Assembly (NCBI GenBank): GCA_949751835.1
Contig: CATKHK010000023.1
Location: 186,001 to 250,000, forward strand
Source of the DNA: Blepharisma japonicum
Lineage: Eukaryota; Ciliophora; Heterotrichea; Heterotrichida; Blepharismidae
DNA length: 64,000 nucleotides
Direction of reading: 5' to 3'
The position numbers and the translations under genes are program-made. A model generated the notes under the pieces. That model was not told the origin of the DNA. It saw nothing but the letters and a program-made list of their open reading frames with translations, and made no database searches. This document shows positions 41,397-45,434 of this stretch, piece by piece (position 1 is the first letter of the stretch; the number at the start of each line of letters is the position of its first letter).

Positions 41397-42020
41397 ATGT
41401 CTCATGCTGATTTACAGCAATACTTAAAAGACACTCGTGAAAACCGAAGACACCTAATCCAGCTTGCTAAAGACTATCTTAACTCAGAAGATAGCAAGCT
41501 CTCTGATAGAAAACATAAATCAAAACACCGCAGAAATAAATTCAACGATCATATATTTCCATCTCTAAAAAATCTAAATAATCACAAAACACAATTTTCT
41601 GAAATATCAGTGATAAAAGAAGTATCTAAATCAAGCACACCTGCGCATAGTAGATCTTTTATAGATAAATCATTTATTACACCAAAATTAAAAGAAAAGT
41701 ATGATATTATGGATTCAATATATTCAAAGAAACTCAAGCGAAGAAATTCGAATTATTTATTTTCAACACCCGATAGTAGAAACAAAATAATAGCGATACC
41801 TGAAAAAATTATCAAAAATAGATCAAACTCACCCTCAGAGAATATAAGCCAAGGCTGCCACTCACACAGATCTCTAACTCCAGAGCTTGAGCAGAATTCA
41901 AAAAATGCAAAATCAGATCCATTCCTCTGCATTCAGCGAAGAAAGATGCATATAAAAGAAAAACTATTACTTAAGTCCCCATCAAACTTATCTTACATTA
42001 ATTATTATAAATTGTTATAA
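41397..42020 (+). CDS. Disordered basic protein, unknown
   Basis: 207 residues, rich in Ser, Lys, Arg and Asn (KHKSKHRRNKFNDH; KKLKRRNSNYLFSTPDSR), with no Trp. An N-terminal helix (LQQYLKDTRENRRHLIQLA) is likely. No domain is recognised. Its stop codon overlaps that of the convergent transporter gene within the palindrome TTATAA. Confidence 0.6.
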   Translation: MSHADLQQYLKDTRENRRHLIQLAKDYLNSEDSKLSDRKHKSKHRRNKFNDHIFPSLKNLNNHKTQFSEISVIKEVSKSSTPAHSRSFIDKSFITPKLKEKYDIMDSIYSKKLKRRNSNYLFSTPDSRNKIIAIPEKIIKNRSNSPSENISQGCHSHRSLTPELEQNSKNAKSDPFLCIQRRKMHIKEKLLLKSPSNLSYINYYKLL

Positions 42021-44015
42021 GTAGCTAACAATCTCTCTAAACATCCCATCAGGGATTCTATTAATCCAAGAATTTCTTGATTTATGTCTGATATATAAAA
42101 TTCCTCTTCTCCTTATTAAGTACCCTAACTTTGTAACAAAAAACTCACATTTTGTTTGCGAATGGCACATAGAAACAGCGATATGGAGTTCTTTTCTACT
42201 GATCTCTACATCATTTATAGTAACTCCAAAGTATTTTCCATTTATTAGAAATTTAAGTTTTCCTTTTGCTGTGTCTACTAGTAGCCCAACACTTCCTCCT
42301 TTTCCAGAATATTGCAATTGAGGAAAGTTAAAAGATTGTGCATTCATTTTGTGGTTGATAAAAATTCCTCAGCTATTTTCTTTGTCAGAGAAAAGAAATT
42401 TCATTGATCCCAATGGCGTTTTTTCAAGAATCCCTATCTCAACTTCATAAGATCTCACTTGATTTGTGTGAAAAATCTCTATATAGCTTGTAGAGTTTAG
42501 CGGTAAAGTTTGTTCGGAAATAAGAGTGATTACATGAATCGGAGTTTTCAGCATCGCAGATTTCCCATTTTTTTCTATTTGGAAATTCTTGAGTGTTTCT
42601 TCATCAATTTTTCATGTTAATTCAGGGGTGTAGCATGACTCTTTAATTATATTGTCAAAATAAAATCGAGATATCATTTCTGGACCTTTAACAAATCTAT
42701 CATTTACTAGCAAATTTTGGTGTTTTTCATTAGTTGGCTCATCTGTATCTAATAATCCTTGATAATTTTTTATAAAATTGAACGAAAGAGCTGTTAAAAT
42801 TAGCAAAGGTAATGCTAAAGTAAAAAATATGGTAATAACCATATTATAGTATTCTTTCTGTTTATCTATAGCTTCGGCTCATATTAAAATCGTAAAAGAT
42901 AGTCCAGTAAGTACTTTTTGATAGCAAAGGATATATCCGTTTATTTTTTTGATTACTCTGACTTCTAAAGTAGCATTTCACATAAAAGATACATATAAAG
43001 AATATCCAACTCCTAAAAAGAAGATATCAATTACCGCTAAATAAAGCATTTTCAGCCAAGACGCAATAGCAAAAATAAGAATTGACAGACTAATTATAAT
43101 AATTGAAAATAAAAGAACTAATTTTCTATTTGTATCAGAAGAGTTTCATCGATCGAAAAAGGGCACTAAAATCGCGACAATAATATGAAATGTGCAAATT
43201 ATACATCCAGATTCAATATTTGATATATCAAAACTTCATTGAAAATATCCATTCGAAATATTTATGAACATAAATACCGTTGCATAAATCAAATAGAAAA
43301 CGATCTTAAAAGTTGAGTACTCTCGATTATTCATTCTAACTAACTCTCTTTTGACTCTATAAACAGGGGACAATGTTTTTATTGAGTAGTCGCATAGCTT
43401 GTCATCTCTTTTCATGTCATATTTGAATAACTTGAAGCAAAAAATTAACCCAGAAGAGCAGATCATAAGAGCAAAGCCAAATGAAGGGATTAAACCGGCT
43501 GAATCAGAAATTATAGGTAAAATGATATAGCTTAGTGAATTTCCTAGCCCAAAATTCATAAAAAATACAAGTCACTTGCTTCTTTCTTTAAATCATAGCA
43601 AAACAAGGGTTAGAACTGCCTGATATTGCACTTGATAAAACATACCAATAATTAATCTACCAATAATACAAAGTCATAAAATTTGGTTGTGGAATGCAAT
43701 AGCCACTATATATTGTCCAAAAATAATCCCAGTTGTAAACATAGCTATGCTTTTCCTCAATCCAAACATATCAGTAATAGCCCCACCATACCCCATTGAA
43801 GCCCCAATCCCATAATAAAGATAAACATAAAAATATGTATACGTCAACGCACTAATTTTGTATTCCTCCATAATCTCAACTTGTAATGCAGACGGCAAAT
43901 CATAAATAAAGCTCGAACTAACTAATAAAAGCACTGCAAAAATAAAAAAATTAAGCTTTTCTTTTCTGCTGGAAGGATCTTCTTCCTCAATTTCTATTAA
44001 GGGCCTCCTTTCCAT
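42015..44015 (-). CDS. MFS transporter fused to a C-terminal SPRY domain
   Basis: 666 residues in one frame bridged by TGA-encoded Trp. Residues ~20-425 form a major facilitator with about 11-12 membrane helices, most like MFSD1 (IYDLPSALQVEIMEEYKIS, TYTYFYVYLYYGIGASMG, FGLRKSIAMF, GRLIIGMFYQVQ). A cytosolic linker (~425-475) leads to a SPRY/B30.2-like domain (~480-640) with YEVEIGILEK, WGIFINHKM, GKGGSVGLLVDTAKGKLKF and LINGKYFGV. MFSD1 is a lysosomal dipeptide exporter. The SPRY part would bind a protein on the cytosolic face. I know of no such fusion in well-studied organisms. Confidence 0.82.
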
Positions 44016-44069
44016 ATTTAATTTATATCACCAACGAATTAAATGATTTTTAATTAAGCCTTCCATAAA

Positions 44070-45434
44070 CTATTGTTGAATGAAAGGCCTTAGAGGTTGT
44101 TCCAAATCTAATGGTTCGCCTGTAATTCTATGATATAAATCAAGAACATCTTCACAGGCACTTTCAAAGTGAGAAGTTGCGTCATAGCTTTTTGAGACAA
44201 AAATATTGTCAGCTCTTCCATCATCAAATGGTTCAAAAGTGTAATAAACTCTTATAAAAGTCTCTAGAACTTGTCCTAATAAATCAAAGGCAATTTGAAG
44301 CTCATCTTCTGGAAAATCAGTTTCTACTTGGGTGCTACAAATTGCGACATAATAGCCTTCAGGACAGACAAAGTGAGCATAGCTGACACAGCTGATATAA
44401 ATATCATTGTTTCTGTTTGCTTGGCGCTGAGGAATTATAATTTGACATGAAGCTGCATCACCTGTATTAGGAATTGGGTGATTTAAAATACAAATTGCTC
44501 TGACCACACTTCCAGTTGGTCTTGCTTTTCCAATATTCAGCACATAAGTAGGCTCACATACCACAATTGGAGCTCTAGCAACTTCATCGCCACTTCTAAC
44601 ACCTACCACCTTTCCTACTTCTCCAATAATAATTTCATCGATTTCTTTATTCAACATATAAGTTCCGCCATATATTGCAGAAAGTCTAGAAAATCCTTCA
44701 GCTATTCCTCCAATACCATAAACAGGGTAAAGGAATGGGGAATCTCCATATAGTCCAGCGCTGTCCATGTACAGTTTAATTTTTAGCATAACTTCATGGC
44801 TTGGTATTTCTAAGAACCTATCACTTGAGTATAAAGCAACTGCATGGACAATAAACTCAATTGTATTCCACTCTAAGCCAAAGCTAGCAACAAGTTCCTT
44901 GAATGGTAAGGTTCTTAATTGGAGACCTTTATGTGTTTCTGCATTTTCGGGATCGTAGTTTTGGATGAATTTAAATAGCTTTTTGCATCTTTTCTTTTCA
45001 AAAAGCCCCATTAGGTCACTCTTTAAGGCTTCAGAATCGTTACCAGGGACTTTATAGATTTTTGGTCTAGACTTGCTGAAAATCCCCCCAGAGCTGTTCT
45101 GCATAACAAAAGAGCCATCAAGGGATTTCCATTCAAGATTATTGGCAACTGATTCAGTGTGAAGGATAAATTTGACTAATTTTCCATTAGCCATTGTGAA
45201 CTTAGGGATTAAGTCAATATTCCAATCGCGGTTTTCTCCGAGGTGAGCTGGAGGTTCAACACCTGGACAAAATGAGTTATAAAGGTTAGATAAATTGAGA
45301 GAAGCTGTAAAACTTCCGTAAAAACCATTTTTATCTAAATGCAAAACCTTTCTGCCTTGTGCGGAGAATAAACCTGCAAGAATGCACTCAGTTAGTCCAG
45401 TGCCTAGAACTATAATATCATATACTTCTTCCAT
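44070..45434 (-). CDS. GDI: Rab GDP-dissociation inhibitor (GDI)
   Basis: 454 residues, the usual length. The dinucleotide-fold start DIIVLGTGLTECILAGLFSA, the Rab-binding platform and mobile loop (MDSAGLYGDSPFLYPVYGIG; YSSDRFLEIPSHEV) and FVCPEGYYVAICST identify GDI. It extracts GDP-bound, prenylated Rabs from membranes and recycles them. Length favours GDI over REP. Stop codon TAG. Confidence 0.95.
   Translation of the reverse strand: MEEVYDIIVLGTGLTECILAGLFSAQGRKVLHLDKNGFYGSFTASLNLSNLYNSFCPGVEPPAHLGENRDWNIDLIPKFTMANGKLVKFILHTESVANNLEWKSLDGSFVMQNSSGGIFSKSRPKIYKVPGNDSEALKSDLMGLFEKKRCKKLFKFIQNYDPENAETHKGLQLRTLPFKELVASFGLEWNTIEFIVHAVALYSSDRFLEIPSHEVMLKIKLYMDSAGLYGDSPFLYPVYGIGGIAEGFSRLSAIYGGTYMLNKEIDEIIIGEVGKVVGVRSGDEVARAPIVVCEPTYVLNIGKARPTGSVVRAICILNHPIPNTGDAASCQIIIPQRQANRNNDIYISCVSYAHFVCPEGYYVAICSTQVETDFPEDELQIAFDLLGQVLETFIRVYYTFEPFDDGRADNIFVSKSYDATSHFESACEDVLDLYHRITGEPLDLEQPLRPFIQQ

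Follow-up and report, generated by a model that had tools for sequence, protein, structure and literature searches.

The 64,000-nucleotide window analyzed here (Blepharisma japonicum contig CATKHK010000023.1, positions 186,001 to 250,000) carries what appears to be, so far as the DNA shows, a single gene encoding one membrane protein, in which an MFSD1-like major facilitator superfamily (MFS) transporter continues into a SPRY domain (Table 1). Comparison with un-fused relatives in the same genome suggests that the product combines a whole MFSD1-like protein, a linker, and a whole small SPRY protein. Our best reading, held with moderate confidence, is that of an MFS protein of the endolysosomal system whose specificity has shifted away from dipeptides and which bears a cytosolic SPRY docking tail; it may be transceptor-like or regulated by a partner. 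The anatomy predicted from these comparisons is well supported; the function is what we infer from it, for a fusion seen in one genome.

Table 1. The fusion gene and its parts (positions within the window; residues numbered from the start codon at 44015).
Feature	Residues	Position	Strand	Basis or remark
MFS-SPRY fusion gene	666 aa + stop	42015..44015	minus	TGA=Trp; Pfam MFS_1 and SPRY
MFSD1-like transporter half	1-420	42756..44015	minus	MFS_1 best stretch 35-349; 8r8q; four-paralogue alignment
ERRPLI	2-7	43995..44012	minus	fits acidic dileucine pattern [DE]XXXL[LI]
Gln128	128	43632..43634	minus	replaces mouse MFSD1 Glu150 (dipeptide clamp); alignment
Linker	421-464	42624..42755	minus	stop-free, coding-like composition
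SPRY module	465-666	42018..42623	minus	alignable to the C-terminus with two stand-alone SPRY proteins
Pfam SPRY stretch, tail-alone scan	527-626	42138-42437	minus	Pfam
Conserved C-terminal extension after SPRY	630-666	42018..42128	minus	ends ..PDGMFREIVSYL; shared with L014 and L015

The genes of the window, which belongs to a genome of 45.2 Mb in 224 contigs, read TGA as tryptophan, and both this reassignment and 15-nt introns have been reported for Blepharisma stoltei (PMC9942806). With TGA as Trp and with TAA and TAG as stops, translation of the minus strand from 44015 to 42015 gave 666 codons without an internal stop. For five of the nine in-frame TGA codons, relatives have a tryptophan at the aligned position: W114, W141, and W346 correspond to tryptophans of mouse MFSD1 (W346 to the cavity residue Trp373), W468 to a TGA-coded tryptophan in both stand-alone SPRY relatives (L014 and L015), and W549 to a tryptophan in one of these two. 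An alternative in-frame ATG at 44066, 51 nt upstream, would give a 683-aa form; the start at 44015 is preferred because it leaves a gap of 54 nt to the neighboring GDI gene (44070-45434), against a mere 3 nt for the ATG at 44066. Four GTA..AG candidate introns of 15 or 16 nt occur across the 666-codon frame (at residues 124, 232, 580, and 631), and these are probably not real, since the frame aligns through those places. At the 3′ end, the palindrome TTATAA (42015-42020) is common to the fusion and to a convergent plus-strand ORF (41397-42020); each of the two frames terminates in Leu-stop, and they overlap by 6 nt.

To assess the junction between the two halves, a codon model was built from 26 of the 38 other window ORFs of at least 150 aa; the remaining 12, which were shorter or less certain, had been set aside by hand before scoring. 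The in-frame score of the linker was 5.7, compared with a mean of -8.4 (SD 5.8) for 6878 overlapping 44-codon windows from the intergenic DNA of this window and a mean of 9.9 (SD 6.4) for 282 coding windows, 23% of which fell at or below the linker score; 34 of the 6878 intergenic windows scored as high as the linker. With a model built on all 38 ORFs and a penalty of 6 per stop, frame 0 scored above the two other frames in each of the six 20-codon windows whose starts lie at residues 411-461, and the picture at the junction was the same with both models. Because the junction scores as coding rather than intergenic DNA, a two-gene reading is unlikely. In its specific form, an error of sequencing or assembly would have merged two genes, or an unseen intron or stop would separate them, and we regard this as very improbable. 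The frame is read from DNA, in which a single miscalled base could mask a stop codon, and 187 of the 6878 linker-length windows of intergenic DNA are free of stops too. Against this stand the linker score, the lead of frame 0, and the absence from the linker of any 15- or 16-nt GTA..AG intron candidate; moreover, the MFS half has no stop codon of its own and would be left without one as a separate gene.

By profile, both domains are real. Pfam MFS_1 (PF07690) matched with an E value of 9.6e-16 (58.1 bits; cut-off, 33.4), and Pfam SPRY (PF00622) exceeded its cut-off of 26.3 bits in the 683-aa form (E 4.9e-7, 30.3 bits) as well as in the 217-aa tail alone (E 7.6e-8, 32.9 bits). At E ≤ 0.01, MFSD1 (8r8q; E 5.8e-10) was the sole match of the whole fusion protein in the PDB, and, within its own genome, four MFSD1-like genes were the only matches of the MFS half. 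No NCBIfam family was found for the 683-aa protein. These profiles, together with the open 666-codon frame and its coding-like linker, bear out the earlier note, which had described an MFSD1-like major facilitator continuing without a break, with TGA read as Trp, into a SPRY-like domain. Single-sequence AlphaFold models had a mean pLDDT of 38.9 for the whole protein and 34.6 for the tail, which was strand-rich yet too low in confidence for use; the SPRY fold is thus far a prediction from sequence. Seven strongly hydrophobic windows were detected in the fusion, and the alignment and topology of MFSD1 point to twelve helices with both termini in the cytosol. The N- and C-termini of MFSD1 are both reported as cytoplasmic (PMC11252000), and by this homology the tail would lie on the cytosolic side, in agreement with the earlier note.

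Searched against its own genome (E ≤ 0.01), the whole protein gave seven matches: the fusion itself, four MFS-only proteins (L010-L013), and two SPRY-only proteins (L014 and L015), with no second MFS-SPRY fusion among them. Of these, L010 matches mouse MFSD1 at E 1.1e-73 and is plainly an MFSD1 itself; the reverse search with L010 recovered the same five transporters and a broken fragment between L012 and L013. As read, the plain transporters measure 464-495 aa and end shortly after the last helix, and none of the SPRY matches in the genome lies near them. L014 and L015, read as 236 and 226 aa, can be aligned with the fusion tail at 25-28% identity, beginning close to their N-termini and continuing to their last residues, and both pass the Pfam SPRY cut-off. 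Since the plain transporters end after the last helix and the SPRY proteins align to the C-terminus, the fusion is best explained as the joining of two whole proteins. The genome holds 35 SPRY matches, 32 of them besides the fusion, L014, and L015. In the same hydrophobicity scan as used for the fusion, none of these other 32 frames had more than one strongly hydrophobic window and seven rows had one, in a comparison where 17 of the 32 frames ran past the stretch read and distant segments could be missed. Two of the SPRY matches (C207:438-689 and C136:438-689) have identical coordinates near their contig starts, with the same frame length and end, which suggests that this contig end is duplicated or redundant.

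The transporter half differs from its plain paralogues at the substrate site. In mouse MFSD1, Glu150 and Arg181 are described as clamping the two ends of the dipeptide, and their mutation harms stability and transport (PMC11252000). The residue comparison, which for TM5 and TM11 rests on a gapped alignment given the high divergence, places Gln128 of the fusion opposite Glu150 and a gap opposite Arg181; the clamp Glu and Arg are kept in all four plain paralogues and gone from the fusion. Independently of the alignment, the stretch between residues 148 and 194 of the fusion contains neither Arg nor Lys, and that between residues 111 and 143 neither Asp nor Glu. Three further positions kept in all four plain paralogues are changed in the fusion, namely Y56 to Ser, N397 to Lys, and the GLMP-contact residue Y416 to Asn. 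Y59, D60, Y276, Y365, W373, and Q396 are kept in the fusion and in all four plain paralogues, and F280 is kept in the fusion and in one of the four. Q393, a Leu in the fusion, is kept in none of the plain paralogues, nor is Q176; some cavity positions therefore vary in the plain paralogues too, and a share of the changes is not peculiar to the fusion. Also retained in the fusion are the Asp and Arg that follow TM2 and the TM4 Gly-Arg. Identity of the fusion was 21.9% to mouse MFSD1 and 22-26% across mouse and the plain paralogues, and in a tree of six rows the fusion branch exceeded 3 changes per site, with no starred branch and without a resolved place for the fusion. By these comparisons, the fused transporter is a very divergent MFSD1-like copy that has lost the dipeptide clamp. 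GLMP (PF15065) gave no matches in the own genome, in a search whose control was also silent everywhere. The divergence of the MFS half, the loss of the clamp, and the presence of both un-fused parents in the genome go beyond the earlier note.

The SPRY tail carries features of its stand-alone relatives beyond the Pfam domain. In the fusion, L014, and L015, the domain is followed by an extension of 35-40 residues that ends in [IL]P..[MIL]FRE[IL]..YL, with 47% identity between the fusion and L014 over 32 aa. A genome search with the 32-aa tail of L014 (E ≤ 10) recovered only the L014 gene itself and the fusion (E 0.014), missing L015, and Pfam (E ≤ 10) gave no family for the extension in the three tails. 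A profile built from the three tail sequences was compared with PDB chains: RanBP10 was the best match (E 3.3e-5), RanBP10 and RanBP9 together ranging from 3.3e-5 to 0.0048, and the other matches included DDX1 (5.3e-4), TRIM67 (0.0023), TRIM9 (0.0064), and SPSB (0.0073 to 0.16); ryanodine-receptor chains were, like SPSB, among the weaker matches. A SOCS box or F-box, suspected by eye in the post-SPRY tail, was dropped because Pfam gave no family at E ≤ 10 and the genome gave no SOCS_box match at E ≤ 1, in a search left unvalidated by its 14 controls, which gave matches only in two prokaryotes and below the cut-off. Searches with the SPRY alignment in two collections covering viral, bacterial, and archaeal sequences yielded 111 pattern matches in viral contigs and 189 in genome contigs, none of which was confirmed.

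The N-terminus of the fusion, MERRPLI, offers a possible address for the protein. The acidic dileucine sorting pattern is [DE]XXXL[LI]; it is fitted by the N-termini of the fusion and of L010 and is absent from L011-L013, that is, from three of the four paralogues. Mouse MFSD1 is reported to reach lysosomes by means of EDRALL at residues 7-12 (PMC6819133). ERRPLI thus suggests delivery to endolysosomes or food vacuoles, although such a short pattern is easily met by chance.

Taken together, sequence and homology show a product made up of a transporter body of the MFSD1 type, a linker of 44 residues, and an entire SPRY protein that forms the C-terminal tail. The gene probably arose when a duplicated, fast-diverging MFSD1-like gene was joined to a copied SPRY gene of the small, stand-alone type, an origin suggested by the un-fused relatives that each half has in this genome. 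The protein would have both of its ends in the cytosol, and ERRPLI would direct it to endolysosomes or food vacuoles. With Glu150 and Arg181 gone, the protein should not carry dipeptides in the MFSD1 manner, and the transporter body would most likely handle another solute or else just sense one. The SPRY tail would dock a cytosolic protein, and partner binding would thereby be coupled to the state of transport at that membrane. In a more committed version, which we consider rather unlikely, a carrier descended from MFSD1 would now serve as a receptor at the membrane of the digestive vacuole or lysosome, having lost dipeptide transport while still binding a lumenal solute, and would report its conformation to the cytosol through the capture or release of a partner by the SPRY tail; if true, this transceptor architecture would be of a new kind.

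Two other readings accept the fusion as one gene and differ in what its halves would do. The MFS half might be a dead transporter that neither transports nor senses and merely holds a SPRY adaptor on the endolysosomal membrane, the adaptor acting as a scaffold or as a substrate receptor for protein turnover. We judge this possible yet somewhat unlikely. The loss of the clamp residues and the fast divergence of the MFS half would suit such a role, as would the nearest solved chains to the tail profile, which include RanBP10, RanBP9, DDX1, TRIM67, TRIM9, and SPSB; several of these proteins serve ubiquitin ligases. However, the retention of Y59, D60, Y276, Y365, W373, and Q396, of the Asp and Arg after TM2, and of the Gly-Arg of TM4 is more than a pure anchor needs, and neither a SOCS box nor an F-box was found in the C-terminal tail with Pfam at E ≤ 10. 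Distinctly improbable, in our estimate, is a neutral fusion, in which an ordinary transporter of another solute would bear a SPRY tail without a specific role. The arrangement has been seen in one genome only, and some same-strand neighbors lie close together here (two of the 16 pairs have gaps of 11 and 54 nt), so the loss of one stop can join genes. Yet at only 25-28% identity to its stand-alone relatives, the tail still shares their SPRY core and C-terminal motif, suggesting long-lasting constraint and not decay. Compared with both alternatives, the retuned transporter with a docking tail is the reading that we prefer.

The two parts of the protein can each be set against known systems. MFSD1 is known in the mouse as a lysosomal dipeptide uniporter (8r8q; PMC11252000, PMC6819133), which the fusion resembles in its MFS fold by Pfam, its acidic dileucine-type N-terminus, and the shared residues Y59, D60, Y276, F280, Y365, W373, and Q396. 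It differs from MFSD1 in its 22% identity, its lack of Glu150 and Arg181, the replacement of the GLMP-contact Tyr416 by Asn, and the presence of about 246 residues, including SPRY, after the transporter part. The tail resembles L014 and L015 in its above-cut-off SPRY domain and in the common C-terminal motif, whereas those proteins have no transporter and share 25-28% identity with it. RanBP9, RanBP10, and SPSB are among the solved-structure matches of the tail profile; these are soluble proteins without a transporter, and the fusion tail differs from SPSB in that no SOCS box was found in it. Membrane proteins with cytosolic B30.2/SPRY domains include the butyrophilins, which are single-span and immunoglobulin-type, and the ryanodine receptors, which are calcium channels; both are unrelated to MFS carriers. 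In our model only, the fusion would be analogous to transceptors and tail-regulated transporters such as Gap1, Mep2, and Pho84, in which a cytosolic terminus of a polytopic transporter links conformation to signaling or regulation. The main text of a review on transporter tails describes such roles for termini in general and does not mention SPRY (PMC6597760). No MFS-SPRY protein was named among the matches listed in our literature searches, to which our claim of novelty is limited, and the earlier note likewise knew of no such protein. We rate the MFS-SPRY arrangement as a new domain combination of known kinds that is real as DNA.

If our preferred reading is true, a lysosomal peptide exporter would have been turned to another use in two steps, the loss of the clamp and the gain of a docking domain, which can be tested separately. 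With one gene in one genome, the reach of this finding is modest until orthologues are shown. The four plain transporter paralogues and the two un-fused SPRY relatives provide natural controls for the role of the tail. Among these transporters, L012 and L013 form a tandem MFSD1-like pair (C133:61292-64779) that is 88% identical, and the broken third fragment between them (C133:62755-63123) contains internal stops. The TM1-TM2 loop of L011-L013 has one apparent 15-nt GT..TAG intron, at the same place in all three genes; L010 and the fusion have no insertion at this place, and their frames read through.
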